64,000 nucleotides of DNA from Candidatus Woesearchaeota archaeon (lineage in GTDB: Archaea > Nanobdellota > Nanobdellia > Woesearchaeales > GW2011-AR4), in contig JACPBQ010000004.1 of assembly GCA_016180235.1 (NCBI GenBank), positions 239,674-303,673 of the forward strand. Reading direction: 5' to 3'. Positions within the stretch are counted from its first letter, which is position 1; every line of letters begins with the position of its first letter. This document shows, in pieces, positions 743-58,546 of this stretch. The notes below the pieces were generated by a model, which saw only the letters and a program-made list of their open reading frames with translations, searched no databases and had not been told where the DNA came from. A program made the translations under genes and the position numbers.

Positions 743-772
743 TTTAAATAGCTTACGCGTGAATGTCCAGTG
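743..772 (-). promoter_or_regulatory. Shared repair-type promoter block, copy A (LAGLIDADG gene)
   Basis: On the minus strand: CACTGGACAT (772-763), 12 bases, then the TATA box TATTTAAA (750-743). The start codon of the endonuclease gene is at 716. The 12-base spacer TCACGCGTAAGC is almost the same as that of the mcm copy at 33042-33053. Confidence 0.75.
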
Positions 773-807
773 CTCAAATAAGATAAAAAAGAAAGAAAAA
801 ATAAAGT

Positions 808-1830
808 TTAGATGTCTTTAAGGCCGCTGGTTTCTACATAAAAGGAGCATTCACTTTCCGGCAAATTCGGAGAATCTACCAGCTTAGCAACTCTGCTGCC
901 TTTCTTGCCTTTCCTGAGGTAAATCCTGAAAGTAGATGCATGGCCTACAATATGGCCTCCAATTGCGGTTGTCGGGTCTCCAAAAAACATATCTGGTTTT
1001 GACATCACCTGGTTGGTAACGTAAACGCAAATGTTGTTCATATGCGCTATTTTTGCCAAATCTCGCATATGCCTGTTGATTTTCTGCTGCCTCTCAGCTA
1101 AAGTGCCTCTTCCTATGTATTCTGCCCTGAAATGCGCTGTCAAAGAGTCTACAATCACCAGCTTTACGTCAAGACCTTGCTTTTGTATCAGGTCCTCGAC
1201 TTTTTCTCCAAGGAGCGCCTGGTGGTCTGAGTTATAGGCTCTTGCTACTTTGATGTTTTTAAGAACCTCTGTTGCATCCAAGCCAACGCCTTTTGCCAAT
1301 TGTTCTATACGTTCTGGCCTGAAAGTATTTTCAGTGTCTATGTAGACTGCTACTGATCCAGGAAACTGCTTCTGGACATTCACAGCAAGAATATGCCCTA
1401 TCTGGGTTTTTCCACTGCCATATTCTCCAAAGCATTCTGTTATTGCTCCGGTCTCAAAGCCTCCGCCCATCAAAGCGTCAAAGCTTTTGCTTCCTGTGCT
1501 TAATTTTAGGACCAGCTCTCTTTTTTTTAATACTTCTTCCCCTGACTCAAAGCCCATTTCCAGGGATGCCCTTGCGGCTGCTATGAGCTTTTTTGCTGCT
1601 GCCTGAGTCATTCCTGTCGCATCAACTATCTCTCCCAGCGTTGCTACAGCCACTGACATCATATCAGTGTAGCCAACTATCTCCAGTTTTTCTATTGTTG
1701 CCGGGCCTACTCCGGGAAGATCAGAAAGCGTCTTTTCCTTGATTGCTTTAGTTTCTTCCTTTAATTTTGATTTTACTGCTTTTTTCTCATTGTTTTGAAC
1801 TGTTTCCGGTTCCATTAATACTTGTTTCAT
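808..1830 (-). CDS. radA: DNA repair and recombination protein RadA
   Basis: RadA is the archaeal RecA/Rad51 recombinase: it forms filaments on single-stranded DNA and drives ATP-dependent strand exchange. At 340 residues it has the family length. It has an N-terminal helix-hairpin-helix domain (residues 36-90, with LPGVGPATIEKL), a Walker A GEYGSGKT (135-142), a Walker B LVIVDSL (224-230) and the L2 region near GDPTTAIGG. There is no intein. The ATG at 1830 follows AGGTGAT by a few bases, which supports this start over the internal Met at residue 6. It is the second gene of an operon, 65 bases after the 88-residue gene. Transcription most likely starts near 2300 from promoter block copy B. 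RadA is the clearest repair gene in the putative regulon. Confidence 0.97.
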   Translation of the reverse strand: MKQVLMEPETVQNNEKKAVKSKLKEETKAIKEKTLSDLPGVGPATIEKLEIVGYTDMMSVAVATLGEIVDATGMTQAAAKKLIAAARASLEMGFESGEEVLKKRELVLKLSTGSKSFDALMGGGFETGAITECFGEYGSGKTQIGHILAVNVQKQFPGSVAVYIDTENTFRPERIEQLAKGVGLDATEVLKNIKVARAYNSDHQALLGEKVEDLIQKQGLDVKLVIVDSLTAHFRAEYIGRGTLAERQQKINRHMRDLAKIAHMNNICVYVTNQVMSKPDMFFGDPTTAIGGHIVGHASTFRIYLRKGKKGSRVAKLVDSPNLPESECSFYVETSGLKDI

Positions 1831-1895
1831 TCAATCACCTTTTAAAGTTTTTCTTTGTTTTATTGTTTTTTACCTGAAAAAATAAAAAAATAAAT

Positions 1896-2162
1896 TTATG
1901 CCTGCATCTCCTTCATCACAAGATACTCGTAGGCTTTTTGCAGCACTAATGATGCCTTTGGCAGGTCATTAAGCCTCAATGTGTTTGTTGACTGCCAGTC
2001 GCCTTTCTTGTCCTTGTACCTTCTCTGGAAAGATACGGTCCTATAGCTCACATCTTCTCCAGACTGGCCTTTACCCTGGTTCTCCCAGACTGTAGCTGTT
2101 AAAGCTCCAGTAGAAAACTTTTTTTCCGGCAGGTTTCCTACCGTTTCTGTCTCTATTTTCAT
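1896..2162 (-). CDS. Conserved small protein of the radA operon, possible nucleic-acid-binding protein
   Basis: An 88-residue protein with no signal peptide or membrane segment. It is predicted to be mostly beta strand in the first half (ALTATVWENQG, YRTVSFQRRYKDKKGDW) followed by one helix (SLVLQKAYEYLVMKEM). The basic-aromatic strand pattern with a C-terminal helix resembles small single-stranded nucleic-acid-binding folds of the PC4/OB kind, but I cannot assign a family. It lies 65 bases upstream of radA on the same strand, behind promoter block B and a long structured leader. This context suggests a role in recombination or ssDNA handling, which is inference only. Confidence 0.75.
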   Translation of the reverse strand: MKIETETVGNLPEKKFSTGALTATVWENQGKGQSGEDVSYRTVSFQRRYKDKKGDWQSTNTLRLNDLPKASLVLQKAYEYLVMKEMQA

Positions 2163-2324
2163 TTTATTTACCTCATTCCTACTCGGAAACCTTAGTTTCC
2201 GGCATCCACTGCGTGGATTTCGGGTTTTATTTCATCATCCCTTGATTGTGAGCTCCAATTGCTTGTGCTCCAGGGATGGAGGCGCTATGCTTTCACATAA
2301 CATTACATTAAATGAAAGAACTCG

Positions 2325-2354
2325 TTTAAATACCCTGTCCGCAAATGTCCAGTG
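2325..2354 (-). promoter_or_regulatory. Shared repair-type promoter block, copy B (radA operon)
   Basis: On the minus strand: CACTGGACAT (2354-2345), 12 bases (TTGCGGACAGGG), TATTTAAA (2332-2325). It would start transcription near 2302, giving a long leader ahead of the 88-residue gene and radA. Confidence 0.75.
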
Positions 2355-2417
2355 GGCAGAAATAAGTGATTTTTGGCTTTTAAGAGCCTATATTACCATA
2401 ATTTTTGGGTTTGGGGG

Positions 2418-2427
2418 ATGTCCAGTG
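2418..2427 (-). promoter_or_regulatory. Solo CACTGGACAT box, copy C
   Basis: A perfect 10-mer without a convincing TATA box 12 bases further on (AAAATTAT at that place). It lies between the radA-operon promoter and the mazG-like promoter, about 40 bases upstream of the latter's TATA box and in the opposite orientation to it. It may be a second binding site for the same factor or a decayed copy. Confidence 0.5.
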
Positions 2428-2522
2428 GGGTATTTACTATAGTTTTGGTTATAATTCTTATGAATATTTATAAATGAGATATGATTAAGGCTTTAAATTG
2501 GGGCTGGAAAATGGTTTGGAGT

Positions 2523-2879
2523 ATGGATAATCAAATAACTATTCAAGAACTAAAAGATAAGGTTAAGAAATTCTGCGAAGATAGAGATTGGGATCAATAT
2601 CATAATGCAAAAGATTTAGCTATTGGAATTACTACTGAAGCATCTGAATTGCTAGAACATTTTAGGTTCAAATCAGAAGAAGATATAAAGGAAATATTAA
2701 AATCCAAAAAACAGAAAGTATCTGAGGAGTTAGCGGACGTTTTTTATTTTGTATTAAGATTAGCACAAAAGTATGATATCGATTTAGCAAAAGAATTAGG
2801 GGAAAAATTAAGAAAGAACGAATTGAAATATCCAATAAGAGAATCAAAAGGATCGAATAAAAAATATAATGAGTTATAA
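2523..2879 (+). CDS. MazG-like nucleotide pyrophosphohydrolase
   Basis: Belongs to the all-alpha NTP pyrophosphohydrolase (MazG-like) superfamily, which hydrolyses (d)NTPs to the monophosphate. The metal-binding helices are visible: EASELLEHF followed by EELADVFYFVLRL, the typical E-x3-E ... E-x2-D pattern. The protein is 118 residues from the ATG at 2523 (MDNQITIQEL). An upstream in-frame ATG at 2481 would add 14 residues that do not look conserved, and the TATA box at about 2462-2475 favours a start after 2490. Only two bases separate its stop from the DUF2075 gene, so the two are one operon. Single-domain MazG-like enzymes next to nuclease-helicases suggest a nucleotide-pool or defence role (inference). 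Confidence 0.85.
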   Translation: MDNQITIQELKDKVKKFCEDRDWDQYHNAKDLAIGITTEASELLEHFRFKSEEDIKEILKSKKQKVSEELADVFYFVLRLAQKYDIDLAKELGEKLRKNELKYPIRESKGSNKKYNEL

Positions 2880-2881
2880 AA

Positions 2882-4753
2882 ATGCTAGTCTATGAAGCAA
2901 CAAAAAGTGATTTTTGTACCTCTGTCCTAAATGATACTATTTCAGATGAGATATATACCAACTATCTAAAAAAAATAGGTAATGTAGCAAAAAAAGAGAT
3001 TAGCTCTTGGTCAGATTCAATGCAATACATGTATAAAGTTGTCCAATCAGAGGAAATCCCGAATAATTGCGGTATAGCCATAGAATTTCGTATTCCCTCA
3101 ACAAACAAGAGAGTAGATTTTATTATTTCTGGTAAAGATGAAGAGAAAACTCAGTCAGTCATTATAATTGAATTGAAAAGATGGGACGAAGTACATAAAG
3201 TTGATGGTAAAGACGCCATGGTATCAACGCCTTTAGGTAGAGGGTTCCATGAAACAACTCACCCATCCTATCAAGCTTGGTCCTATTCTAATCTTATTAA
3301 GGATTTTAATGAAAATGTTCAAAAAGAAAATATTCAGATTTATCCTTGTGCTTTTCTGCACAATCTGGATAAGGACAAAAACCCAGAGATAGAGGATAAA
3401 ATTTATTCACTTTATATTGAAAAGGCCCCAGTCTATACCAAAGGAGAAGTTCTAAAGCTTAGAAAATTTATAACTAAATTCATAAAATATGGTGACAATA
3501 AATATTCGCTATATCAAATAGACCATGGTAGATTAAAACCGTCAAAAACATTACAGGATTCATTGGTTAGTTTATTGAAGGGCAATGAGGAGTTTACATT
3601 AATTGACGATCAAAAAATTGTCTTTGAAGAAGCAAAATCAATGGCTCTTAAATCTTTTAAGGATAAGCAAAAAAGGGTTCTTATAGTTGAAGGCGGTCCT
3701 GGCACCGGTAAATCAATCTTAGCAGTAAATCTATTAGTCAAATTGACTGATAAAAATATGATAGTGCATTATGTTTCAAAAAATTCAGCGCCAAGGCACG
3801 TTTATTCCTCTAAGCTTAAAGGAACAATAACAAAATCCCATATTGATAATTTATTTAAAAGCTCCGGAGCATTTCATGATTGTGATAGTAATGTTTTTGA
3901 TGCTTTAGTGGTTGATGAAGCCCACAGGTTGAATGAAAAATCTGGATTATACAAAAATTTAGGCGATAATCAGATAAAAGAAATTATTAATTCTTCCAAA
4001 TTTATCATATTTTTTATTGATGAAAACCAAAAAGTTGATATTTTTGATATAGGCAGAAAATCTGAAATAGAAAAATATGCTTCTTTGTTTAATGCCGAAG
4101 TAAAAACACTTGAATTAAATTCACAATTTAGATGTAATGGTTCAGACGGTTATCTGGCATGGCTCGATGATTTATTAGGGATAAAAGAAACCGCAAATTT
4201 TGATGGATTTGAAGGGGAATATGATTTTAGAATTGTTGGTAATCCGAATGAATTAAAGGACACAATTATAGAAAAAAATAAAATTAGCAACAAGGCACGA
4301 TTATTGGCTGGGTACTGCTGGAATTGGAATAAAGAAGGAAAAAATAAAAGTGAAATTCATGATATATTTATACCAGAATTTAAATTCTCTATGAGTTGGA
4401 ATCTTGGCAATACTTCTACCTGGGCAATAGATAAAGAATCAGTAAATGAGATAGGGTGCATTCATACTTCTCAAGGTCTAGAATTTGATTATGTTGGAGT
4501 TATAATTGGTCCGGATTTAAGGTACAAATCAAATAAGATTATAACAGATTATAAGAAACGTGCAAAAACAGACCACTCATTGAAAGGGATTAAGAAAATA
4601 GCAGAAAAATATCCAGATAAAGCTAATAAGATTGCGGATGAGATAATTAAGAACACGTACAGAACTTTAATGACGAGAGGTCAAAAAGGGTGTTACATTT
4701 ATTGTTGTGATAAAGGACTACAGGAGTATATTAAATCTCGTATAAAAAAATAA
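2882..4753 (+). CDS. DUF2075 helicase-like ATPase with N-terminal nuclease-like domain
   Basis: A 623-residue protein of two parts. Residues about 70-180 carry a PD-(D/E)XK-like core: RVDFIISG, then VIIIELKRW, a D ... E-x-K pattern. From about 260 it is a superfamily-1-like DUF2075 ATPase with Walker A GGPGTGKS (near 271), Walker B VVDEAH (near 343), a motif III-like FIDENQK, and the late helicase motif HTSQGLEFDYVG followed by NTYRTLMTRGQKG. Such proteins bind and remodel or cut nucleic acids. It is co-transcribed with the MazG-like gene. AT content is higher than in the neighbouring core genes, in keeping with a transferred defence-type module. The exact substrate is unknown. Confidence 0.85.
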   Translation: MLVYEATKSDFCTSVLNDTISDEIYTNYLKKIGNVAKKEISSWSDSMQYMYKVVQSEEIPNNCGIAIEFRIPSTNKRVDFIISGKDEEKTQSVIIIELKRWDEVHKVDGKDAMVSTPLGRGFHETTHPSYQAWSYSNLIKDFNENVQKENIQIYPCAFLHNLDKDKNPEIEDKIYSLYIEKAPVYTKGEVLKLRKFITKFIKYGDNKYSLYQIDHGRLKPSKTLQDSLVSLLKGNEEFTLIDDQKIVFEEAKSMALKSFKDKQKRVLIVEGGPGTGKSILAVNLLVKLTDKNMIVHYVSKNSAPRHVYSSKLKGTITKSHIDNLFKSSGAFHDCDSNVFDALVVDEAHRLNEKSGLYKNLGDNQIKEIINSSKFIIFFIDENQKVDIFDIGRKSEIEKYASLFNAEVKTLELNSQFRCNGSDGYLAWLDDLLGIKETANFDGFEGEYDFRIVGNPNELKDTIIEKNKISNKARLLAGYCWNWNKEGKNKSEIHDIFIPEFKFSMSWNLGNTSTWAIDKESVNEIGCIHTSQGLEFDYVGVIIGPDLRYKSNKIITDYKKRAKTDHSLKGIKKIAEKYPDKANKIADEIIKNTYRTLMTRGQKGCYIYCCDKGLQEYIKSRIKK

Positions 4754-4788
4754 AATTGAGGAATCGTTTGAAGTAAATTCTAATTAAC

Positions 4789-4854
4789 TCAATGTTTATG
4801 CTTTATCTCCACCAAGAACATCCTTCCATCAGTTGAAAGCAATTTAATATCAAT
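4789..4854 (-). pseudogene. Remnant of a second zinc-ribbon/AbrB-type antitoxin gene
   Basis: The minus strand encodes 21 residues ending in a stop. They match the last part of the intact antitoxin at 5153-5617: DIKLLSTDGRMFLVEIKH here against DIKLLTPDGRMFLVEIKH there. An in-frame TAG precedes the fragment and no other part is present. It is therefore a leftover of a duplicated antitoxin gene, lying at the downstream end of the toxin-antitoxin operon. Confidence 0.75.
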
Positions 4855-4863
4855 CTAAAAATA

Positions 4864-4980
4864 TTACAACCCAAGAAGTTCCCTAAGCTCTTTATCGCTC
4901 ATCTCTCTATTCGGATACTTTTTCTTATGTTCTTCATAGATTTTATCCAATTCATTCAAAACCTCTGATTTAGCTTTCAT
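4864..4980 (-). CDS. 38-residue helical protein at the end of the toxin-antitoxin operon
   Basis: The ATG at 4980 comes 3 bases after the TAA of the previous gene, which supports it being real. The product is charged and probably all helix (LNELDKIYEEHKKKYPN, then SDKELRELLGL), with no membrane segment. I do not recognise it. It could be a small antitoxin-like or adaptor peptide. Confidence 0.5.
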   Translation of the reverse strand: MKAKSEVLNELDKIYEEHKKKYPNREMSDKELRELLGL

Positions 4981-4983
4981 GGT

Positions 4984-5172
4984 TTAACAAGGATTTGCTT
5001 TTTTCATCAATTCAATTAGTTCTTCCCTTGACATCTTTTCTGTAATACGTTCTATTTCTTTTACAGAATCTCCTCCTCCGACTCCCATCCTTTGGAAGAA
5101 CTTTATAGCTTTCACTGGCCCAAGCTTCTTGAATACGGCTTCAACGCCTTCCTCATCTTTCATTTTTACCAT
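4984..5172 (-). CDS. Small acidic helical protein of the toxin-antitoxin operon
   Basis: 62 residues from the ATG at 5172 (a TTG at 5184 would add four). The core KKLGPVKAIKFFQRMGVGGGDSVKEIE recalls a widespread small-protein pattern of the form LG..A.RF.Q....G.GD, often found beside toxin-antitoxin or defence genes. I cannot name the family. It overlaps the end of the antitoxin gene by 20 bases and is followed after 3 bases by another tiny gene, so all four belong to one transcript. Confidence 0.6.
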   Translation of the reverse strand: MVKMKDEEGVEAVFKKLGPVKAIKFFQRMGVGGGDSVKEIERITEKMSREELIELMKKANPC

Positions 5173-5617
5173 GCTTAATCTCAACCAAGAACATCCTTCC
5201 GTCTGGGGTTAATAGCTTGATATCAACCAAATCTTTTTTGGAAAGATTATTAGTCAGCTCTTTCGGAAACCTGAAAAAGAATGTTTTTCCGTCAAAATTC
5301 ATGTTCCTTTCTATGGTTATCAAATTTTGCTCTAACGACCTTTTCATTATCAGGAATTTCTCATACCTTTTGGCTTGCTCAAAATCCAAAAATTCTTTTT
5401 TGCATTTGGAACACTGCCAAGCGGGATAAGTAAACTCAAAATCATTAAAGGAAACTCTCTTATCTATCAAAATAGAATTTTTTCCATGGCATTTAAAGGG
5501 CACTCCACCCTTAAATGAGCTTTCATCTATCTTGAGTTTTACTTCTTCTCCAAACTCTTCATCTTTAATATTATAAAATGGCTCTTTTTCTAGTTCCTGC
5601 TGGTGTTTTTGTTTCAT
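5153..5617 (-). CDS. Antitoxin: zinc-ribbon protein with C-terminal AbrB-like segment
   Basis: 154 residues. A treble-clef or zinc-ribbon segment is visible: FKCHGK near residue 42 and WQCSKCKKEF near 67, the pattern of YgiT/MqsA-type antitoxins. The C-terminal part (FRFPKELTNNLSKKDLVDI, then GRMFLVEI) is like an AbrB/MazE swapped-hairpin strand set. It overlaps the upstream toxin gene by 4 bases (ATGA), which fits translational coupling. It is expected to neutralise the toxin and to repress the operon by binding the repeats at 5888-5915. Its downstream C-terminal copy is the remnant at 4789-4854. Confidence 0.7.
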   Translation of the reverse strand: MKQKHQQELEKEPFYNIKDEEFGEEVKLKIDESSFKGGVPFKCHGKNSILIDKRVSFNDFEFTYPAWQCSKCKKEFLDFEQAKRYEKFLIMKRSLEQNLITIERNMNFDGKTFFFRFPKELTNNLSKKDLVDIKLLTPDGRMFLVEIKHGKNER

Positions 5618-5874
5618 TTTTTGTTATACTTCCTGATTTGTGGTTCTGATGATTGGTAGGCAGTTATTACATTTGCAAAAGGCTTGTTATATTCAAATAT
5701 CATAGTTATGTAGCGTAAGTGGTGTGTTAATGCAATATAAATTTTCCCTTCTTGCTTGATAAACTTCGGCTTACCATATTTAAGTGCGTCCTTTAATTCT
5801 TCTAGCTCTATCCTGTGCTTGTAAAGTATTTTCTCCTCTACATCCGGACTTACATAAATCATCATATTTTTCAT
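5614..5874 (-). CDS. Toxin of the BrnT/DUF4258 (RelE-like) type
   Basis: 86 residues, first gene of the operon. The N-terminal helix pattern KHRIELEELKDALKYGKP and the following strands (KIYIALTHHLRYITMIFEY) match the small RelE/ParE-superfamily fold of BrnT and DUF4258 toxins. Such proteins cut mRNA or act on translation, but the catalytic residues cannot be pinned here. AAGG lies 6 bases before the ATG at 5874. Upstream are a TATA box (about 5922-5933) and three direct repeats at the expected transcription start. Confidence 0.65.
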   Translation of the reverse strand: MKNMMIYVSPDVEEKILYKHRIELEELKDALKYGKPKFIKQEGKIYIALTHHLRYITMIFEYNKPFANVITAYQSSEPQIRKYNKK

Positions 5875-5887
5875 AAATAACCTTCGT

Positions 5888-5934
5888 GTACGCCATATAG
5901 TACGCTAAATAGTACACCTCATATATAAACTTTT
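5888..5934 (-). promoter_or_regulatory. Promoter and operator of the BrnT/DUF4258 toxin operon
   Basis: On the minus strand a TATA box (TTTATATATG, about 5924-5933) is followed by three GTAC units at 5915-5912, 5903-5900 and 5891-5888, an exact 12-base period; the first two are GTACTAT. The repeats overlap the predicted transcription start, the usual place for autorepression by an antitoxin. Confidence 0.6.
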
Positions 5935-5939
5935 TGATT

Positions 5940-6599
5940 TTACAAGGAATTCCATTTTGCATCACCAACCACTAAATGATCCAGAACCTTGATTCCAACC
6001 AAATTTCCAGTTTCGACAAGAACTTGGTTAATCCTATAATCCTCATCAGAAGGCTCTACCGAGCCAGAAGGATGGTTATGCACCAAAATGATTGAGTTAG
6101 CACTATGTTTAATAGCTTCCTTGAAAACTTCGCGCGGATGAACTAAAGAAGAATTCAGGGTTCCAATAGAAATCACTTCATCCTTAATGATTTTATTCTT
6201 GGAATCAAGGAAAACAGCAATGAAATGCTCTTTCTTCATATCTTTCAGCTTTTCAATATAATAAGAAGCAATATCAGAAGGGTTCTTAACAACTTTCTCG
6301 CATATCTTGCCGGAATTGACCCTTTTGCTTAATTCAAAAGCGGCAATTAGCCTGGAAGCTTTTCCTAACTTAACCCCTTTTATCTTCATTAATTCAGTTA
6401 AGGATAATGAATTTAGCTTTTCCAATCCAAACGACGCAATCAATCGATGGCTTAAGTCAATAACGTTTTCCCCATTGGTTCCATTCTGAAGAATTATGGC
6501 TAACAGCTCTGAATCATTCAAATTGTCAGGCCCTTTGGCTTTTAGCCGCTCTCTTGGCCTTTGCTCTAATGCAATCTCTTTTATCAACAATCCCATCAC
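5940..6599 (-). CDS. radC: RadC-family protein (MPN/JAB domain)
   Basis: 219 residues: an N-terminal helix-hairpin-helix segment (residues 15-95, with NDSELLAIILQNG and LMKIKGVKLGKASRL) and a C-terminal JAB/MPN+ domain with the metal motif HNHPSGS ... PSDED near 174-187. This is the bacterial RadC layout; the family is tied to DNA repair, transformation and mobile-element biology, but its biochemistry is unsettled. RadC is uncommon in archaea and suggests transfer from bacteria. The start is unclear: GTG 6599 and ATG 6596 overlap a GAGGTGATG ribosome-binding sequence, so the TTG at 6590 or 6587 may be used. Transcribed from promoter block D. Confidence 0.88.
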   Translation of the reverse strand: MMGLLIKEIALEQRPRERLKAKGPDNLNDSELLAIILQNGTNGENVIDLSHRLIASFGLEKLNSLSLTELMKIKGVKLGKASRLIAAFELSKRVNSGKICEKVVKNPSDIASYYIEKLKDMKKEHFIAVFLDSKNKIIKDEVISIGTLNSSLVHPREVFKEAIKHSANSIILVHNHPSGSVEPSDEDYRINQVLVETGNLVGIKVLDHLVVGDAKWNSL

Positions 6600-6625
6600 C
6601 TCTGGAAATTTTATATAAAGCTCTG

Positions 6626-6655
6626 TTTAAAAATCTCACGCGAGAATGTCCAGTG
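6626..6655 (-). promoter_or_regulatory. Shared repair-type promoter block, copy D (radC)
   Basis: On the minus strand: CACTGGACAT (6655-6646), 12 bases (TCTCGCGTGAGA), TTTTTAAA (6633-6626). A second TATA-like TTTATATAAAA follows at about 6609-6619. Confidence 0.75.
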
Positions 6656-6685
6656 CTTATTTTTAGTATTGTAAATTAAAATTGG

Positions 6686-7147: not shown

Positions 7148-7227
7148 TTTAGGTTAAGATTAATAACGAGATTAATAAAGTTAATTAGAATAATTAGGTA
7201 ATTAAAATAAGTTGAGTCTGTTTTTAA

Positions 7228-7281: not shown

Positions 7282-7335
7282 TTAGGCTAAAATAAAAGTA
7301 AATTCAAATAAAAATCCTTTAACTAAAAGAAACTA

Positions 7336-8343
7336 TCACTTTTCCGCATTCTTGATCTCTTCATCAAGCCTTCTTATCTCTTCCTCGGGGTTTGGATTAA
7401 TATCGACGCTATTGGCTACTAGCTCTATCCTGTCAAAAAATAAATTCTTCTTGGCCCTGCCATTAATCTTCACCATATTGCCCAAAAGGTCGTTCTTGAC
7501 CTGCTCAAAGCTTTCAGGATTCTGCCTGTATTCCAGGATTTTTTCTTTTTTGGCATTGAGAAGCTTTTCCATGGAATCGCGGAAAAAAACAGCCCTTATG
7601 TTGTCCGTGCCGTCATCAACAACCAAATTTAAAACATAGGAATAATCCGGCTCAACATTTTTGTGCTCAGCGCACACAAAGATTCCTTCCTCCGGCTTTG
7701 CCCTTTTGCCGCACTTGGGGCAAATTTCAAAGAAGCGCGGCTCAAAAACCTGCACAATGGTAGCTAAAATCTCTGCTGCATTATCATTCTCTTTCAGTTC
7801 GTTTATCGCTTTTCTTTCGGATTTAACAACCATGTCCTTGACTTCAACAGTCTCCCCAGGAGGGTCTATTATCAATTTGCTTTTCTCGTTCAGATGCAGC
7901 TCAATGTAATTGCTGTTTTCCTTCACATAGCTGCCTATTATCTTTACTATAGTGCCTTCCTTAAGATTGTGTATATTATCGGCCTGCGAGCCCCACATGA
8001 CAACCCTTATCTTTCCGGTCTCGTCTGCCATCAAAAATGAAGCTACCTTGCCCTGCCTGTTATTGGTATTAAATTCCCTCAGCTCATAAGCCTGCAGGAC
8101 CTTTCCTACAGTTTCTACATTCCTCAACCCGGGAACAATGTTCTTTATCTGCAATTTTCCTGTAACGTTGTCAAAAAGCTTTATTCCGAGCTCATTTGCC
8201 ACTATATGCGCTGCTCCTTCCCTGCTTATCAATCCTGAGAGCTGCTTCATCTTCGCGTTTATCTTTTCATTAAGAACTTCTTCAGAAATATCAGATTCCT
8301 GCTGTATCTTCCCTATGATATGCTCGTATGGGATTTTTATCAT
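7336..8343 (-). CDS. rpa: Replication protein A (single-stranded DNA-binding protein)
   Basis: 335 residues from the ATG at 8343. It binds and protects ssDNA in replication and repair. It has an N-terminal helical region, an OB fold at about residues 75-160 (FLMADETGKIRVVMWG), a second OB region, and within it a zinc finger CPKCGKR ... FVCAEH. A longer frame to 8466 exists, but its extra 41 residues run through a dispersed repeat and a TATA box (CTATATA, about 8372-8378), which sits 30 bases before the ATG at 8343. That fits a leaderless mRNA. The protein resembles single-polypeptide euryarchaeal RPA. Confidence 0.9.
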   Translation of the reverse strand: MIKIPYEHIIGKIQQESDISEEVLNEKINAKMKQLSGLISREGAAHIVANELGIKLFDNVTGKLQIKNIVPGLRNVETVGKVLQAYELREFNTNNRQGKVASFLMADETGKIRVVMWGSQADNIHNLKEGTIVKIIGSYVKENSNYIELHLNEKSKLIIDPPGETVEVKDMVVKSERKAINELKENDNAAEILATIVQVFEPRFFEICPKCGKRAKPEEGIFVCAEHKNVEPDYSYVLNLVVDDGTDNIRAVFFRDSMEKLLNAKKEKILEYRQNPESFEQVKNDLLGNMVKINGRAKKNLFFDRIELVANSVDINPNPEEEIRRLDEEIKNAEK

Positions 8344-33031: not shown

Positions 33032-33061
33032 CACTGGACATCCGCGCGTAAGCTATTTAAA
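33032..33061 (+). promoter_or_regulatory. Shared repair-type promoter block, copy E (mcm)
   Basis: CACTGGACAT (33032-33041), 12 bases (CCGCGCGTAAGC), TATTTAAA (33054-33061). The mcm ATG at 33084 lies 30 bases after the start of the TATA box. Confidence 0.8.
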
Positions 33062-33083
33062 AGACAAAAAATATGGTGTGATT

Positions 33084-35117
33084 ATGCAAGAATTAGTCAA
33101 GATGGATGCTAACGAGCAGATAAAGAGGTTTCATGAGTTTCTGGAATCATATTATTATGGGGCTATTCTTGAGAATTTGAGAAAAGATCTTAAGTTTGTT
33201 GCTGTAGATTTTGCCGAGCTTTCCAAATTTGACCTTGATCTGGCAAATGAGCTTTTGGAAGATCCAGAGGATACCATAAAAGCCGCAGAAATTGCCCTTG
33301 AGCAGTTTGACCTGGAAGACATAAAGGGGGCAAAAGTAAGATTTTCCAATCTGCCGAAAAACCAGAGAATCCTAGTAAGGAACATAAGGAGCAAGCATAT
33401 AGGCAAATTCATGGAAGTTGAGGGAATTGTAAGGCAGAAATCTGATGTAAGGCCTCAAGTTACAAGCGCAAGGTTTGAGTGCCCTGTTTGCGGTAATATA
33501 ATCAATGTGCTGCAGCTGGACGGCAGCTTCAAGGAGCCGAGCAAATGTGGATGCGGCAGGAAGGGAAAATTCACTTTGCTGAGCAAGGAATTAGTGGATG
33601 CACAGGGCATAGTTTTGGAGGAAGTTCCTGAAAGCCTTGAAGGAGGAGAGCAGCCGAAGAGAGCAAATATTTTCCTGAAAGATGATCTGGTAAGCCCATT
33701 AAGCGAGAGGAAAACAAATCCAGGAAGCAAGATTGATGTTGTTGGGATTATCAAGGAAGTTCCCATAATACACAAGTCAGGAACAAAATCTACAAGATTT
33801 GACTTGATGATAGAAGCAAATTATATCGGCTCCGTCGAGGAAACTTTCTATGAAGTCGATATAACGGAAGAGGAAGAGCAAAAAATAAAAGAGATGTCGC
33901 AGGATCCGGAGCTGTTTAAAAAGCTGATTAATTCTGTAGCGCCTTCAATTTACGGCTATGAAAAGGTAAAAGAGGCCTTATTGCTGCAGCTTGTTGGCGG
34001 AGTAAGGAAGGTCAGGAGCGACAAGGTTGTAAGCAGGGGGGATATGCATATACTGCTTCTTGGAGATCCTGGCTCGGGAAAGAGCGCTTTATTGAAAAGA
34101 GTGAGTGCTATATCCCCAAAAGGAAGATATGTAAGCGGAAGAGGGGTTTCCGGAGCCGGGTTAACAGCGGCCGTCGTAAAGGACGAGTTCCTGAAAGGGT
34201 GGAGCCTGGAAGCAGGTGCTTTGGTTCTGGCTTCAAATGGCATTTGCTGCATAGACGAGATGGACAAAATGACTTCTGACGACAGGAGCGCAATGCACGA
34301 AGCACTCGAGCAGCAAACAGTCAGCATATCAAAAGCCAACATACAGGCCACATTAATCGCGAGGACTACAGTTCTTGCTGCCGCAAATCCAAAATTCGGC
34401 AGGTTTGACCCTTACGGAGTAATTGCCGAGCAGATAAATATGCCACCTACCCTGATAAACAGGTTCGACCTTATATTTCCTATAAAAGATTTTCCGGACC
34501 CGGCAAGGGACGAGAAGCTTGCAACACATTTGCTTGTGCTGCACCAGACCCCGGATATGTACGTGCCTGAGCTGTCGACGGACTTTTTGAGGAAATATGT
34601 TGCTTATGCAAAGCAAAAAATAATTCCGAGGCTCAGTGATGCTGCTTTGCAGGAAATAAAGGAATTCTACCTTACGATGAGAGGCAGCGGCGGCACAGAG
34701 GAAGGGATTAAGGCTGTGCCGATATCTGCAAGGCAATTGGAAGCGCTTGTAAGGCTGGCTGAAGCTTCTGCAAGATTAAGACTGAGCGAGGAAACCGCAA
34801 GAGAGGACGCAAGAAGGGCAATCGAGCTGCTGGAATACTGCCTGATGCAGATCGGGCTTGACAAGGAAACAGGAAAAATAGATATCGACAGGATTGCCAC
34901 AGGCATTTCAGCGTCCCAAAGAAGCCATATACTTGTAGTGAAAGAATTGATAAACGAGCTTGAGAACAAATTAGGGAAGACCATCCCGATAGATGATATA
35001 ATAGAAGAGGCAAGGCTCAAGGGAATTGATGAGGAGAAAGTTGAGGAGGTCATTGAGAAGCTCAAGAGAGTTGGAGAGGTCTTCGAGCCCCGTAGGGGCT
35101 TCATAAGCAAGATATAA
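33084..35117 (+). CDS. mcm: Replicative DNA helicase MCM
   Basis: 677 residues from the ATG at 33084. A GTG at 33078 is an alternative, but the ATG fits a leaderless mRNA from the TATA box at 33054. The ring helicase unwinds DNA ahead of the fork. It has an N-terminal domain with a zinc site (FECPVCG ... KCGCGRK, near residues 132-158), Walker A GDPGSGKS, Walker B CIDEMDKM and an Arg finger region LINRFDL, then a C-terminal winged helix (EVIEKLKRVGEVFEPRRG). No intein. Its promoter carries the same block as radA and radC, so the helicase may be raised under DNA stress. The OB-fold gene follows after 56 bases. Confidence 0.97.
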   Translation: MQELVKMDANEQIKRFHEFLESYYYGAILENLRKDLKFVAVDFAELSKFDLDLANELLEDPEDTIKAAEIALEQFDLEDIKGAKVRFSNLPKNQRILVRNIRSKHIGKFMEVEGIVRQKSDVRPQVTSARFECPVCGNIINVLQLDGSFKEPSKCGCGRKGKFTLLSKELVDAQGIVLEEVPESLEGGEQPKRANIFLKDDLVSPLSERKTNPGSKIDVVGIIKEVPIIHKSGTKSTRFDLMIEANYIGSVEETFYEVDITEEEEQKIKEMSQDPELFKKLINSVAPSIYGYEKVKEALLLQLVGGVRKVRSDKVVSRGDMHILLLGDPGSGKSALLKRVSAISPKGRYVSGRGVSGAGLTAAVVKDEFLKGWSLEAGALVLASNGICCIDEMDKMTSDDRSAMHEALEQQTVSISKANIQATLIARTTVLAAANPKFGRFDPYGVIAEQINMPPTLINRFDLIFPIKDFPDPARDEKLATHLLVLHQTPDMYVPELSTDFLRKYVAYAKQKIIPRLSDAALQEIKEFYLTMRGSGGTEEGIKAVPISARQLEALVRLAEASARLRLSEETAREDARRAIELLEYCLMQIGLDKETGKIDIDRIATGISASQRSHILVVKELINELENKLGKTIPIDDIIEEARLKGIDEEKVEEVIEKLKRVGEVFEPRRGFISKI

Positions 35118-42273: not shown

Positions 42274-43482
42274 TTATGATAAAGACAGTTCATCTTCCAG
42301 GATTTTTTTTGTGAGAGGTATTGCTGATGAGGAAACAGACAATGATATGTCCCTTGTCCTTCCGTACCTTCCTTTTGACACTGTTTTTGTGTTCAATATC
42401 CCCATAAGCTCAAATTCCCTGATTATATCAGATACTCTTCTCTGGGTCAGGGGCCTAAGGCCTATCTTGAAGCACAGTTTTTTGTAGAAATCATAAATTT
42501 CACCAGTGTATGCGTATGGATTGCTTGCTTTTATTGATATTATTGAAAGCAGCACTGCCTGGAACTGCTTTGGCTGGGTCTTTACCACATCGAATATCTT
42601 TTCCTTCTCCACCCTGTCTTCTGCTTCGTCTATATGCACAAGAGATATTTTTTTGTTTCTTGCCCTTTCAGCTATTTCTGCTGCCACCCTCAAAAGCTCG
42701 ATTGCTTTTCTTGCGTCCCCGTGCTCTCTTGCCGCGTAAGCAGAGCATTTCTCTATCACTCCCGGCTCTATGGTGTTTTCCCTGAATGCCTTTGCGGCCC
42801 TTTCTTTGAGTATGTCCTGTATCTCCAAAGCGTTGTACGGCGAAAAGAAGACATCTTCTTCTGACAAGGAGGATTTAACCCTCAAATCAACGCTTTCCAT
42901 AAAGGAAGTGTTGTTGGAAATTCCAAGTATTGCTATCTGCGATTTCTTTAGGTCCTCGTTTATCCTTGTGAGATTATAGAGGACATTGTCTCCGGTTTTT
43001 TTGATCAGCTGATCAATCTCATCAAGCACAAGCAAGATGGTGCTGCTCTCCTTTTCAACGCTTTCGTAGAATATCTTGTATACTTCATCTGTAGGCAGGC
43101 CAGTTGCCGGTATATCCCTCCCAAAGGAGCTGGAAAGCTGCGCAATAAGCCGGTATTCTGTATCTGCTATCCTTTTAAGCTTGCAGTTTACATATATTAT
43201 TTTTAACGGGATTTTTCTTTCTGCTGCTATCTTGGCCATGTTATCTGTTATGTGCTTTATCGTGAGTGTTTTGCCAGTTCCGGTGTTTCCATAAATAAAT
43301 AGATTTGAGGGCTTTTCATGTTTCAAAGAAGGAGCTAAGATGTTTACTATCTGGTTCACTTCCTTGTCGCGGTGTAAGATGTTTTCCGGTATGAAAGAAG
43401 AAAGCAAAACGCTACGGTCAGTAAATAAGGATTCCCTGACCAGGAATTCCTCAAAGAAGGCAGAAACGCTCTTTTTTTCCAT
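42274..43482 (-). CDS. orc1: Replication initiator Orc1/Cdc6
   Basis: 402 residues. It binds origin recognition boxes and loads MCM. AAA+ core: Walker A GNTGTGKT (near 64), Walker B LVLDEIDQL (near 150), sensor 1 ILGISNNTSF; C-terminal winged helix from about 320 (YDFYKKLCFKIGLRPLTQRR). A TATA box GTTTATATACC (about 43503-43514) lies 29 bases before the ATG, so the mRNA is probably leaderless. First gene of the orc1-DP1-DP2 operon, the same order as in Pyrococcus. An origin often lies nearby, but I cannot show one in the 269-base upstream gap. Confidence 0.96.
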   Translation of the reverse strand: MEKKSVSAFFEEFLVRESLFTDRSVLLSSFIPENILHRDKEVNQIVNILAPSLKHEKPSNLFIYGNTGTGKTLTIKHITDNMAKIAAERKIPLKIIYVNCKLKRIADTEYRLIAQLSSSFGRDIPATGLPTDEVYKIFYESVEKESSTILLVLDEIDQLIKKTGDNVLYNLTRINEDLKKSQIAILGISNNTSFMESVDLRVKSSLSEEDVFFSPYNALEIQDILKERAAKAFRENTIEPGVIEKCSAYAAREHGDARKAIELLRVAAEIAERARNKKISLVHIDEAEDRVEKEKIFDVVKTQPKQFQAVLLSIISIKASNPYAYTGEIYDFYKKLCFKIGLRPLTQRRVSDIIREFELMGILNTKTVSKGRYGRTRDISLSVSSSAIPLTKKILEDELSLS

Positions 43483-52071: not shown

Positions 52072-52209
52072 TTTGTTTTCAATATTTAATGATGATAGCT
52101 CCAATAATCCCAAAAAACAATAAAAACCTTACTAATAATATAAAAACTATAATTCCAGGAAATCAAAATTTATAATATTTTTTATTCAGTTAAAATAATA
52201 TTACTTTGT

Positions 52210-53976: not shown

Positions 53977-53989
53977 GATGTTTTCCCTT

Positions 53990-55057
53990 CTATATGATTA
54001 ATAAATCTTTCGATACCTTGGTCAGCAAAACCGGCTTTTTTTCCATCAATAAAGTGTCCTCTATCCGTATGCCGAATTTGTTTGGGATGTATATTCCGGG
54101 CTCTATCGTAAATATCATGTTTTTTTGTATTTTGTCTTTTGAGTTTAAAGTCAAATTCGGCAATTCGTGTATCTGGCAGCCAACGCCATGGCCCAACCCA
54201 TGTATAAAATATTTTGAGTATTTGCCAAGGCTCTTAACGCATCTTTCATAGATTTTTCCGCAATTATCACCTATTTTTATATTTTCAGCAAGGCTTTTCT
54301 GGGTTTTCAGCAAAAGACTGTAAATTTTCATTTCCTTTTTTTTCGGCTTTCCTATGTAAATTGTCCTTGTCATGTCGGTGCAGTAGCCCATGTACTTTAT
54401 CCCAAAATCAATAACACAAAATCCTTTTTGAAGCCTGGTATTTTTTGGCATGTGGTGAGGCATGCTTGCGTTTTTGCCTGATGCCACTATTGGCGGGAAA
54501 GACATTTCAAGGCCTATTTTTTTTGCCTCGTACTCAAGAAAAGCAGCCGCATCAGATTCGGTCTTAAAGCCATCAATATTTTTAATAAATTTTTTTATAA
54601 TATCATTTCCGTAATTGAAGGCATTTTTTATTATCCTTATCTCCTCTTCAGTCTTTGTTTCCCTCAATCTCAGGCAGTCCAAAGCGAGATCCTTTGTTTT
54701 TGCTCTTTTAAAGTGCTTTTTGAAGGCTTTGTAAGCCAATAAAGTAAAGGCGCTTTTATCTATTCCAATATTTTTTGCTTTTATGCCTTTTTTCCTCAAA
54801 ATAATGCTTATTGATTCAAAGAATTTTTTCCTATCCATCTTATACGCATTTTTTATACCTGACTTTCTGGCCCTTTCGTATTCCATTTCCGGGGCTATTA
54901 GGAAAGGAGGCTTTGTTTTTGGTATTATCAATGCGCCCATTCCATAATACCTGGAAAAATATACCATATTTGGGTTAGGCTCTATCCCTGTGCTGTAGAA
55001 CAATGCAAAATCCAATTTCTTCTTCTTTAAAATAGCCTTTAATTCCCTTATTTTCAT
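53990..55057 (-). CDS. pepQ: M24 family Xaa-Pro aminopeptidase/dipeptidase
   Basis: 355 residues. N-terminal creatinase-like domain (1-120) and a pita-bread catalytic domain with all five metal ligands in place: IDFGIKYMGYCTD (two Asp), FIHGLGHGVG (His), FTIEPGIY (Glu) and IRIEDTLLM (Glu). Cuts dipeptides or N-terminal residues before proline. First gene of a two-gene operon with the long M29-like enzyme. Confidence 0.9.
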   Translation of the reverse strand: MKIRELKAILKKKKLDFALFYSTGIEPNPNMVYFSRYYGMGALIIPKTKPPFLIAPEMEYERARKSGIKNAYKMDRKKFFESISIILRKKGIKAKNIGIDKSAFTLLAYKAFKKHFKRAKTKDLALDCLRLRETKTEEEIRIIKNAFNYGNDIIKKFIKNIDGFKTESDAAAFLEYEAKKIGLEMSFPPIVASGKNASMPHHMPKNTRLQKGFCVIDFGIKYMGYCTDMTRTIYIGKPKKKEMKIYSLLLKTQKSLAENIKIGDNCGKIYERCVKSLGKYSKYFIHGLGHGVGCQIHELPNLTLNSKDKIQKNMIFTIEPGIYIPNKFGIRIEDTLLMEKKPVLLTKVSKDLLII

Positions 55058-55152
55058 GCCTTGCGTAATAAATGCCGGTGTTTTAAATGTTTTCCTTTCT
55101 AAAATCTGGTTTATGCAAAAGATTTAATAATAAACTGCCCATTTAAAACAAC

Positions 55153-56361
55153 ATGAATAAATACAGGCTTAATAATGGCATAACTATACTTTTTGAGAAG
55201 AACAATTCCAAATCTGTTTCTGTCGAGGTAATGTTCAAGGTAGGATCCAATAATGAATCTGCTGAAATTGCCGGCATATCCCATTATCTTGAGCACATGC
55301 TTTTTGAAGGGACGAAGAAGAGGAAAAACAGCACAGAGATAGCAAATGAGATAGAGAAATACGGAGCAGAGTTCAATGCATATACAACTGGAGACAGGAC
55401 TGCTTTCTTCATCAAGATAATAAACAAGAGGTTTGAAAAGGCACTGGAGATATTATCTGATATGGTCAAAAACTCGGTTTTTGACAGCAAGATAATGGAG
55501 AAGGAAAAAAAGGTAATCCTGAAGGAAATAAACATGGTCACTGATGACCCAAGGCAGCACCAGTGGATACTTTTCCATAAAAACCTGTTTGAAAGGCATC
55601 CTGCAGGAAACCCGACTTACGGCACCAAGGAAACAGTCAAGGCAATCAGCAGGCAGACTTTAGTTGATTATTTTAACAAACATTATCTGCCGAACAACAT
55701 GATAATTTCCGTTGTCGGCAATGTAAATGATGCTGAAAAGGAGATTTCAAAATATTTTTCAGGCATGAAGCCAAAAAAAGTTTTTCAAAGGAAATTAGTA
55801 AAAGAATTGAAACAGGGCAAACCCAAAAAGTTTGTTGAGAAGAGGAAGATAAACAATTCCTATATGGTATTAGGATATAAGACCGCTTCCAGGCTGGACA
55901 ATGACAGCTATGCGCTCGATGTCATTTATGGTGTTTTGGCTCGCGGGCAGTCAGGATGGCTTTTCGACGAAATAAGGAACAAGCTTGGCTTGGCTTACCA
56001 GGTCGGGGCAATGCACGAGAACGAGAAAGATTACGGCTATTTTGCAGTATATACCGGCTTGGACAAGAGCAACATAGAGAAAGCCAGGAAGATAATACTT
56101 GAGCAGTTCAAGAGGCTCCAGAACTTAAGCAGGAAGGAGCTGGAAGAGGCCAAGACTTACCTTGAAGGAAATCACGCTTTGACTATTGAGGATAATTTTC
56201 ATCTTGCTGACAACAATGCTTACTGGGAATCAATAAAAGACTCGAATTTAGCCAAAAATTATATTAAAAAAATAAAGAAAGTCACTATTGATGACGTTAA
56301 AAGGGTTTCCAAGAAATATTTTAATGGTAATTATACGCTGGTTGTTATAGAGCAGAAATGA
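55153..56361 (+). CDS. M16 family zinc peptidase (pitrilysin-like)
   Basis: 402 residues, the single-copy size of bacterial and archaeal M16B subunits. The inverted zinc motif HYLEHMLFEGT is near residue 43, with the third ligand Glu in the helix around 115-125 (KKVILKEINM). The second half has RGQSGWLFDEIRNKLGLAY. Such enzymes degrade short peptides or process secreted proteins. Monocistronic. Confidence 0.92.
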   Translation: MNKYRLNNGITILFEKNNSKSVSVEVMFKVGSNNESAEIAGISHYLEHMLFEGTKKRKNSTEIANEIEKYGAEFNAYTTGDRTAFFIKIINKRFEKALEILSDMVKNSVFDSKIMEKEKKVILKEINMVTDDPRQHQWILFHKNLFERHPAGNPTYGTKETVKAISRQTLVDYFNKHYLPNNMIISVVGNVNDAEKEISKYFSGMKPKKVFQRKLVKELKQGKPKKFVEKRKINNSYMVLGYKTASRLDNDSYALDVIYGVLARGQSGWLFDEIRNKLGLAYQVGAMHENEKDYGYFAVYTGLDKSNIEKARKIILEQFKRLQNLSRKELEEAKTYLEGNHALTIEDNFHLADNNAYWESIKDSNLAKNYIKKIKKVTIDDVKRVSKKYFNGNYTLVVIEQK

Positions 56362-56410
56362 ATGTTTATAGTTAATAGGGTTCATTTTTATAACTCAAAT
56401 ATTATCCGAA

Positions 56411-56462
56411 ACTCTAGTCCAAGGCGTCGCTGTCTCTCCACACGCTCCGCCTTGGTGTTTAT
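56411..56462. repeat. Dispersed stem-loop element, copy 6
   Basis: ACTCTAGT, stem CCAAGGCG (56419-56426) and CGCCTTGG (56448-56455), loop TCGCTGTCTCTCCACACGCT plus C. It lies between the convergent M16 and TyrRS genes, where it could act as a two-way terminator. Confidence 0.8.
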
Positions 56463-56464
56463 TA

Positions 56465-57583
56465 TTATCTTGTTACCTTGAATTTGCTTATCTCTTCCCT
56501 TAGTTTTTTTGCTGCTGGGCTTTTTTCCAGCTTGTTCCTTACAGGCTCTATCAATTGGTTCAGGTAAAATGATGTTGATTTTTTCAGATCCATAGGATGC
56601 AATTGCTTTTTTGAAAATGCCCTTTCCAATGATTCATAATCTGAAAATTCTATATCGCCGCCAAATTTAGCAGACCTTTCTATTTTGATTGTTTTGAATT
56701 TTTCAAAAATAATATGCCTGTTGTACTCCAAGATAGGGTTTTCTTCTGTAATGCCTTCTGGGCAGTAAGCCTTGCTTATTTTCCTGTTTACCTCATCTTC
56801 AGAATCAGACATGAATATCGCGCTGTCCGGCTTTGATTTAGACATTTTCAGTTCCATCACAGTTTCATGTTTATCTTTATGAACAGTTACAAACTCCATT
56901 TTTTTACTTGTATATTTTGTTGGACTTACTGGCTCACCTAAACCTCTTAACATGTGGTGGCTCACTATTACCGGCTTCCAATATCCAAGCTTTTCCCCTA
57001 TCTCCCTTGCGAGAATATTCACTTTCCTTTGATCCATTCCTAATTGGCATATATCTGCCTTTAAGTGGAATATGTCTGCTGCCTGCATGCAAGGATATAT
57101 TATCTGGGAAGCGCTCAATGAATCTGATTCTGATCTTCCCATGATTTCAGCGCACCTTACTATCCTCTTTACTGTATTTGCCCTTGCTATCTGGATAACT
57201 GTTTTCCAGTAATCGCGGTTGTTCAACAGCTCTGAAGCCCATACAAATTCAACATTTTTTAAGTCCATGTCGCAGGCTTTCCATACTTCTATGAGGTATT
57301 TTCCAACTTTTTGTATATTCTCTAAATTTCCCTCTAACTTGTTGTTTGCCCATGCGTGCCAGTCTGCAACCAAAAACTTGAAAGTGCATCCTGCCTTAGT
57401 CATGCGGTTTACGTTTATCGCTCTTAACAATCCCTGGGCAATATGTATGCTTGTTCCGGACGGCTCAAAGCCGTCATATGCTACCGGGTTTTTCTTTTTA
57501 GAAAGAAGCTCTTTCAATTCCTCTTCTGTCACTATTTCCTGGCCTACCTGCCTGATAAGATTAAATCTTTCTTCTATATCCAT
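56465..57583 (-). CDS. tyrS: Tyrosyl-tRNA synthetase
   Basis: 372 residues, archaeal/eukaryal type. Rossmann fold with YDGFEPSGTSIHIAQG (HIGH-like site), a tyrosine pocket QAADIFHLKADICQLGMDQRK, and KMSKSKPDSAIFM (near 245). C-terminal helical domain binds the anticodon. Charges tRNA-Tyr. Confidence 0.96.
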   Translation of the reverse strand: MDIEERFNLIRQVGQEIVTEEELKELLSKKKNPVAYDGFEPSGTSIHIAQGLLRAINVNRMTKAGCTFKFLVADWHAWANNKLEGNLENIQKVGKYLIEVWKACDMDLKNVEFVWASELLNNRDYWKTVIQIARANTVKRIVRCAEIMGRSESDSLSASQIIYPCMQAADIFHLKADICQLGMDQRKVNILAREIGEKLGYWKPVIVSHHMLRGLGEPVSPTKYTSKKMEFVTVHKDKHETVMELKMSKSKPDSAIFMSDSEDEVNRKISKAYCPEGITEENPILEYNRHIIFEKFKTIKIERSAKFGGDIEFSDYESLERAFSKKQLHPMDLKKSTSFYLNQLIEPVRNKLEKSPAAKKLREEISKFKVTR

Positions 57584-57732
57584 GAGAAGATATTATTTTT
57601 GTTTTGTATTTAAATGTTTGGTGGTGAAGGGGAAAAGGGAGTATAACTACCTTTTTGCGAACATTTTATGTTTGGAAAAAGTATGTTATACGCACTTTTC
57701 CGGCTTATTCCTGAATAAGGCTCGATTTTCAA

Positions 57733-58152
57733 TCAGCATTTTACCAAAAACTCCTTTGGACTCAGTATCCTGATGCCTTTATGGCTCTTTAACCCAAGCA
57801 GATGACTGTCTCCTGAGATTATGTCAGCTTTGGATTTAATGGCGCAATCAATGAACTTGATGTCATCCTTGTCGTTTAATAAAACATTTTCATAGAAATC
57901 GGGCTTTACCACAATTGATTTGGCAAGGTATCCCGTCAGGATAAACTCCCTGTATTCCGGGCTTACCACTTTTCTGATGGCCGGCCTGCCAAATACTTCA
58001 CGAATCTCCTCAATTATCCCTCTTGTTGTGAAATTAATAATCTGCCCATTTATTAAAAGCTCGAACAACTTAGCAGGGTTTCCTTCTTTTGATATTGCAG
58101 CTGAAACAACAATGTTTGTGTCAAGCACTACTCTTGCTCTTCCTGTACTCAT
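57733..58152 (-). CDS. PIN-domain toxin (putative ribonuclease)
   Basis: 139 residues. PIN-fold RNase of the COG1569-like type: VVLDTNIVVSA with the first Asp, a middle Glu (IIEEIREVF), and DDIKFIDCAIKSKADIISGD with further Asp residues. The start overlaps the AbrB-like antitoxin gene by 32 bases. Forms a toxin-antitoxin pair with it, controlled by the inverted repeat at 58403-58431 and by promoter block F. Confidence 0.88.
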   Translation of the reverse strand: MSTGRARVVLDTNIVVSAAISKEGNPAKLFELLINGQIINFTTRGIIEEIREVFGRPAIRKVVSPEYREFILTGYLAKSIVVKPDFYENVLLNDKDDIKFIDCAIKSKADIISGDSHLLGLKSHKGIRILSPKEFLVKC

Positions 58153-58378
58153 GTATCTCTGCCTCTATTTCGGCAGGAGACAGCCTTTTTGCCCTGCTTC
58201 TTAACTCCCTGAACTTCCTGATGTAGGATTCCGTATCTATTTTCTTCATCACGATGGTGTCCTTATTCAGGGCACTGACGGCAAAGATGGTATTTGCCGA
58301 AGCGCCTACTTCATCCCTTACTTCCTTAGGTATTATTATCTGGCCCCTTTCCGACATTTTAGCTGTTTCCATGCTCAT
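58121..58378 (-). CDS. AbrB/MazE-like antitoxin
   Basis: 85 residues. N-terminal swapped-hairpin DNA-binding domain: AKMSERGQIIIPKEVRDEVG, AVSALNKDTIVMKK; C-terminal tail (REIRS-like helix ending EYRKSKSSA) to hold the PIN toxin. GGTGATG lies just before the ATG at 58378. Expected to bind the operator at 58403-58431 and repress its own operon. Confidence 0.88.
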   Translation of the reverse strand: MSMETAKMSERGQIIIPKEVRDEVGASANTIFAVSALNKDTIVMKKIDTESYIRKFRELRSRAKRLSPAEIEAEIHEYRKSKSSA

Positions 58379-58402
58379 TTTACATCACCAGGCTTAAGTA
58401 CG

Positions 58403-58431
58403 TTTTACGTATTTATAAACTTTACGTAAAA
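58403..58431 (-). promoter_or_regulatory. Operator and proximal promoter of the AbrB/PIN operon
   Basis: Perfect inverted repeat TTTTACGTA (58403-58411) and TACGTAAAA (58423-58431) with an 11-base centre that is the TATA box (TTTATAAA). Binding there would block TBP, a simple autorepression design. Confidence 0.7.
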
Positions 58432-58470
58432 ACACGTTAAACACCAGTCAAGTATTATAATGCAAACTTG

Positions 58471-58500
58471 CTTATAAATCTCACGCGAGGATGTCCAGTG
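58471..58500 (-). promoter_or_regulatory. Shared repair-type promoter block, copy F (AbrB/PIN operon)
   Basis: On the minus strand: CACTGGACAT (58500-58491), 12 bases (CCTCGCGTGAGA), TTTATAAG (58478-58471). A distal promoter for the toxin-antitoxin operon, back to back with copy G. Confidence 0.7.
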
Positions 58501-58516
58501 GGCAAAACAACTATGG

Positions 58517-58546
58517 CACTGGACATTTGCACACAAACTATTTAAA
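58517..58546 (+). promoter_or_regulatory. Shared repair-type promoter block, copy G (Cas4-like nuclease)
   Basis: CACTGGACAT (58517-58526), 12 bases (TTGCACACAAAC), TATTTAAA (58539-58546). The Cas4-like ATG at 58569 lies 30 bases after the start of the TATA box, the same distance as in mcm. Confidence 0.8.

Follow-up and report, generated by a model that had tools for sequence, protein, structure and literature searches.

The window analysed here, a stretch of 64,000 nt from a Candidatus Woesearchaeota archaeon, contains seven exact copies of the 10-mer CACTGGACAT (the box). They are located at 763, 2345, 2418, 6646 and 58491 on the minus strand and at 33032 and 58517 on the plus strand, and all seven are intergenic. 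A TATA-like sequence (TATTTAAA, TTTTTAAA or TTTATAAG) follows exactly 12 nt downstream of six of them; the exception is the box at 2418, which has no TATA and lies 73 bp upstream of the box at 2345. An earlier note on this DNA had reported these positions, their placement between genes, the 12-base gap in six copies and spacers resembling TCTCGCGTGAGA or CCGCGCGTAAGC, and each of these was found as described. The box promoters and the genes behind them are listed below.

1..716, minus strand: free-standing LAGLIDADG_3 protein (Pfam LAGLIDADG_3) with a C-terminal helix-turn-helix (HTH); start codon at 716, cut at the window edge
743..772, minus strand: box (763-772), 12-nt spacer TCACGCGTAAGC and TATA TATTTAAA; promoter of the LAGLIDADG/HTH gene
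808..1830, minus strand: RadA recombinase (Pfam Rad51, 2e-83), second gene of its operon
1896..2162, minus strand: 88-aa protein ahead of radA, without a Pfam family; the most conserved target
2325..2354, minus strand: box (2345-2354), spacer TTGCGGACAGGG and TATA; proximal promoter of the small-protein/radA operon
2418..2427, minus strand: distal box without TATA; in the congener G001 the pair is 72 bp apart
5153..5874, minus strand: two small genes (86 and 154 aa) after radC, with homologues linked to a box in G010 too
5940..6599, minus strand: RadC
6626..6655, minus strand: box, spacer TCTCGCGTGAGA and TATA TTTTTAAA; radC promoter
33032..33061, plus strand: box, spacer CCGCGCGTAAGC and TATA TATTTAAA; mcm promoter, with an in-frame ATG at 33084, 52 nt from the box
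33078..35117, plus strand: MCM helicase
57733..58378, minus strand: MazE/AbrB-type antitoxin and PIN_3 toxin
58471..58500, minus strand: box, spacer CCTCGCGTGAGA and TATA TTTATAAG; AbrB/PIN promoter
58517..58546, plus strand: box, spacer TTGCACACAAAC and TATA TATTTAAA; promoter of the Cas4-like/PRC/replication factor C (RFC) operon, with an in-frame ATG at 58569, 52 nt from the box
58560..59411, plus strand: Cas4/PD-(D/E)XK nuclease
59475..60734, plus strand: PRC-barrel protein and RFC small subunit; gene order kept in several related genomes

Under a first-order Markov model, 0.06 copies of CACTGGACAT are expected in the window against the 7 present (P(>=7) ~7e-13), and ~1.0 in the host genome (1,040,680 bases, 1.04 Mb) against 17 found. 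The reversed pattern, used as a control, did not occur in the window or in the genome. Two further 10-mers likewise reach seven copies in the window, so the count by itself is not unique; the significance of the box lies in its position, fixed spacing and conservation.

For an unbiased view of the promoter, 81 boxes were collected from four genomes by the bare 10-mer. A TATA was found at a gap of 12 nt in 63 of the 81, compared with a mean of 0.28 at any other gap. Start codons lie at a sharply preferred distance of 51-53 nt from the box, which indicates a leaderless mRNA and puts the box at -52 to -43, as had been proposed. The consensus of a 119-promoter profile is CACTGGACAT-NYNCRCRTRARR-TATWTAAA. 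Conservation ends about 7 bp upstream of this 30-bp element and the flanks are otherwise unrelated, which excludes an ordinary repeat and bears out the statement that sequence outside the 30-base block differs. CACTGGACAT is asymmetric, non-palindromic and present in a single orientation relative to the TATA. The box is a genuine promoter element.

Generic leaderless promoters from the same loci have an A-rich B recognition element (BRE), with A at a frequency of 0.96 at -3, and none of them has CRCRT at -9. The box promoters have CRCRTRARR in its place, with T at -5 and the A-tract lost. With R at -6 and A at -3 still present, their BRE is altered rather than clearly weak. Further boxes occur at an offset of 7 bp (33 cases) and at 15-17, 20-22 and 64-76 bp, and these recurrent offsets suggest that boxes arranged in tandem are bound cooperatively. 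The distal box at 2418 stands between the radA operon and a divergent pair of genes at 2481-4753, encoding a MazG-like pyrophosphohydrolase and a Schlafen group 3 helicase-domain protein.

The comparison was extended to relatives, all of them metagenome-assembled genomes (MAGs) of uncultured archaea. The 10-mer was found in 56 of 59 relatives, and genomes of the same family typically have 5-31 copies against 0-1 for the control. The composite CACTGGACAT-N12-TATA is present in 154 of 335 genomes of the order (reversed control, 0). With the last base left free, CACTGGACA plus TATA was found in 106 of 152 Woesearchaeales genomes and in 0 of 91 genomes from other orders of the class. Among the matches listed in a GTDB-wide scan, almost all were MAGs of Candidatus Woesearchaeota/Nanoarchaeota. 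Families of the order that had seemed free of the box were not: CACTGGACA with a different last base was found at their radA promoters.

The earlier note had proposed a scan for the box with its 12-nt gap over the host genome and its relatives, and this composite proved to be genome-wide, intergenic and enriched at replication, repair and DNA-modification genes. It had also pointed to orthologous promoters of relatives as the place where absence would tell. At radA-operon promoters the exact 9-mer is kept in 22 of 30 genomes, compared with 0 of 30 at the AlaRS promoters used as a control. The mcm gene was discarded as an orthologous test gene; outside family f1 just two exact matches were found, both without TATA. 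In other orders the spacer and TATA layout is retained at several radA-operon promoters while the box is shifted (e.g. CACTTGACAA), a reading made by eye in 13 such promoters and clear in about five. Within 292 kb of the genome G337, from another order, there are three copies of the spacer-TATA pattern, all accompanied by a box variant; one lies before radA and one before a gene read by eye as LAGLIDADG-like. A perfect composite box also precedes the operon of the 88-aa protein and radA in a MAG from a different phylum (Aenigmatarchaeota, JACRMX010000062, L109), to be taken as transfer or a misbinned contig.

The target set comprised 211 non-redundant promoters, 189 of them with a callable gene. 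Recurrent targets are the 88-aa protein followed by RadA; the Cas4-like nuclease with PRC-barrel protein and RFC small subunit; an RNase H-like exonuclease (RNaseH_2), RNR, RadC, MCM, Hef helicase and an XPF-type nuclease; and DNA methylases, tyrosine recombinases, nucleotidyltransferases, free-standing LAGLIDADG proteins and Bro-N proteins. Toxin-antitoxin and restriction-modification genes, TopA and, in some genomes, Orc1 are boxed as well. UvrA, Tag and an Lhr-like helicase are single cases, and a UDG-linked radical SAM protein occurs in two. The C-terminal part of one Bro-N protein weakly resembles DNA damage-inducible protein D (E 1e-4, far under the family cut-off). Drawing the seeds from the regulon makes the seed-based target counts partly circular, a problem that the Pfam comparison does not share. 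Among 96 first genes this comparison gave LAGLIDADG_3 in 15, Cas4/PD-(D/E)XK in 4, MCM in 3 and methylases in 3, and 94 neighbouring control genes had no such bias. The radA operon, radC, mcm, AbrB/PIN and the Cas4-like nuclease stand as the downstream genes first named, whereas the LAGLIDADG endonuclease, named as one gene, belongs to the commonest single target class. The 88-aa protein was modelled as a beta4-alpha fold (pLDDT 80), for which no significant match was found in the PDB.

In many genomes a box promoter is separated from TsaC by a pair of tiny proteins with the motifs LFxxQIK and EEGFMIGYL (L007, at ~22.4-25.4 kb of C6 in the host genome; L082, L105, L151, L152 and L198). Protein A has ~25-45 aa and the sequence M[DE]LSNETIKELFxxQIKELT; protein B is acidic, has ~45-65 aa and ends in EEGFMIGYL. 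No NCBIfam match was found for the pair. Its position recalls, by analogy only, the small checkpoint proteins induced in the SOS response. A known RNA under box promoters without an open reading frame (ORF) was considered and dropped; no Rfam match explained them, and small ORFs were present there instead. A head-tail virus contig with portal and major head protein genes (L388, IMG/VR 3300014656_001513) has a double box and a perfect composite promoter at 7738-7767, and is probably a Woesearchaeal virus exploiting the regulon of its host. The few other IMG/VR matches look mostly like chance.

Fixed TATA spacing, intergenic position, conservation at orthologous promoters and functional coherence of the targets together define a coherent promoter regulon, which is real and conserved. 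CACTGGACA(T) is, we think rather probably, the site of a sequence-specific activator that drives this DNA-metabolism regulon, most plausibly on DNA damage or stalled replication. The factor would bind at -52 to -43, directly upstream of the modified BRE CRCRTRARR and the TATA, and once bound would activate by helping TFB/TBP or RNA polymerase. Damage or a replication block would then switch on homologous recombination, nucleases, excision repair, nucleotide supply, helicase, clamp loading, restriction-modification and toxin-antitoxin genes. An activator is favoured because the site is non-palindromic and stands at a rigid distance just upstream of a non-consensus BRE, an arrangement seen with archaeal activators that assist TFB. 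Like the site of the TFB-recruiting activator PF1088 of Pyrococcus, the box is a non-palindromic upstream site beside a non-consensus BRE; there PF1088 is described for one operon, whereas the box serves dozens of promoters (PMC5817253).

Of the SOS-like regulon first proposed, the promoter element, the targets and the conservation hold, while damage induction and activation are predicted from sequence. The replaced BRE, the tandem boxes, the range across the order with a shifted box beyond it, the tiny-protein targets and the use by a virus go further than the earlier note. In function the regulon looks like one of SOS type; membership in the LexA or DDRE/Orc1-2 systems is unsupported, their defining motifs being unmatched. 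More tentatively, and with somewhat less than even confidence, we suggest an ancient, class-wide archaeal SOS in which repair, recombination and tiny checkpoint-like proteins are controlled by a dedicated activator, distinct from LexA and Orc1-2, acting through a composite promoter that replaces the BRE, with homing endonucleases and viruses plugged in. The open-licence literature searched yielded neither a previous description of a motif or regulon of this kind in Woesearchaeota/DPANN nor any work on transcriptional regulons in Woesearchaeota. With a precise cis-element, geometry, gene list and phylogenetic range, the regulon bears on whether a coordinated DNA-damage programme exists in archaea other than Sulfolobales. 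In this large uncultured group the box can also be used to call regulons and to assign viruses to their hosts.

Several observations count against a damage-responsive activator. Box promoters retain the BRE bases of greatest diagnostic value, R(-6) and A(-3). Some targets are not repair genes, such as RpL11 and TsaC with the tiny-protein pair, and thermosome-like and pseudouridine-synthase-like genes are found at longer distances. Boxes at MCM are almost confined to family f1. Each of the candidate factors taken up below is also missing where boxes are plentiful: a winged-HTH protein from G001 and G187, and Orc1/Cdc6 from G175 (99% complete, 7 boxed promoters), with assembly gaps possible in both cases.

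A cell-cycle regulon, whose factor would turn up replication and recombination genes once in every cell cycle and not on damage, is unlikely, though less so than the other alternatives. MCM, RFC, RNR, TopA and, in some genomes, Orc1 would suit it. UvrA, Tag, RadC, the Hef/XPF nucleases, the DinD-like Bro-N protein, toxin-antitoxin, restriction-modification and the virus would be odd members of such a set, and MCM is seldom boxed outside family f1. The target list as a whole resembles LexA regulons more closely than a replication-phase set.

That resemblance could instead point to a LexA-like repressor, held on the box and released from DNA after damage, which we regard as unlikely. As in the bacterial LexA/RecA SOS, one shared element stands at a recombinase, UvrA, a DinD-like protein, nucleases, toxin-antitoxin genes and a virus. 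Repressors usually cover the BRE/TATA or the start site. The box, in contrast, is asymmetric without a LexA-type palindrome, and lies at a fixed distance upstream of the BRE/TATA core promoter, the usual position of archaeal activators (PMC5817253).

There is a smaller chance that box and CRCRTRARR form an extended core promoter for a paralogous general factor, an alternative TFB or TBP. The common spacer and BRE of box promoters do differ from those of generic promoters, and the spacer is retained in other orders despite the shifted box; however, a 10-bp box ending 12 bp upstream of the TATA lies beyond the usual TFB footprint.

An activator at the box leaves the identity of the factor to be considered, for which a class-wide winged-HTH protein and Orc1/Cdc6 are candidates; presence or absence is not decisive. 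The winged-HTH family (L137/L219) occurs in 60 of 65 genomes in the order and 29 of 30 outside it, and is single-copy and very conserved (LCLSxGLLQPGDSRDVVVDV). Loci are L137:1365-1808, L299:1501-1980 and L317 (C5:43573-44019 in the host genome). No Pfam family was found for it; its model shows three helices and a wing followed by a long helix (H-H-H-wing, pLDDT 81) and had no significant PDB match. As an order-specific factor it was rejected, being class-wide and having its own promoter boxed in only three genomes. It remains a mere candidate because the box outside the order is shifted, not absent.

Orc1/Cdc6, mostly single-copy, is found in 59 of 65 genomes, whether these have many boxes or few, so its distribution does not discriminate; in the window Orc1 lies at 42274-43482. 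That this initiator is the factor has a small chance, and would be compatible with the predicted activator. The reverse complement of the box, ATGTCCAGTG, shares TCCAGTG with what we take to be the core of the archaeal origin recognition box (ORB), which speaks for Orc1; unlike ORB, the box is tied to the TATA of many genes in a single orientation and at a fixed spacing. The damage regulator of Sulfolobus, Orc1-2, is itself an Orc1 paralogue (PMC9738581). On the other side, Orc1/Cdc6 is equally present in genomes with few or no boxes, and none was found in G175, G069 or G070.

The Sulfolobales UV/damage regulon (DDRE, Orc1-2, TFB3) shares with the box a non-palindromic element at a fixed distance upstream of the BRE/TATA and a damage-related target set (PMC5817253, PMC9738581). 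DDRE is the hexanucleotide ANTTTC at -44 to -39 (PMC5817253), whereas the box is 10 bp long, lies at -52 to -43, and differs in sequence and lineage. No ANTTTC was found at -44 to -39 in the 119-promoter profile, where CRCRTRARR fills the region. In the Sulfolobales UV response, DNA repair genes were reported not to increase (PMC2246294), whereas repair genes are core targets of the box.

It is very improbable that a mobile promoter or homing-endonuclease cassette spread the box: no target class is as common as the free-standing LAGLIDADG genes (15/96), but the flank profile largely excludes it, sequence beyond the 30-bp element being unrelated, and the core targets are orthologous operons with boxes conserved across families.

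Two minor observations concern RNR and the spacers. In the host genome a TATA-less box (C1:66341-66350, L001) overlaps the start-codon region of a ribonucleotide reductase (RNR) gene and is oriented away from it; the RNR gene of G025 has a normal box promoter (L048). The 12-nt spacers of G025 form classes GGCGCTGTGAAA, GCCTGCCTAAAA and GCTCACGTAAGA (L051, L053, L062, L066 and L067 versus L048, L054, L055 and L059), which may mark sub-regulons.

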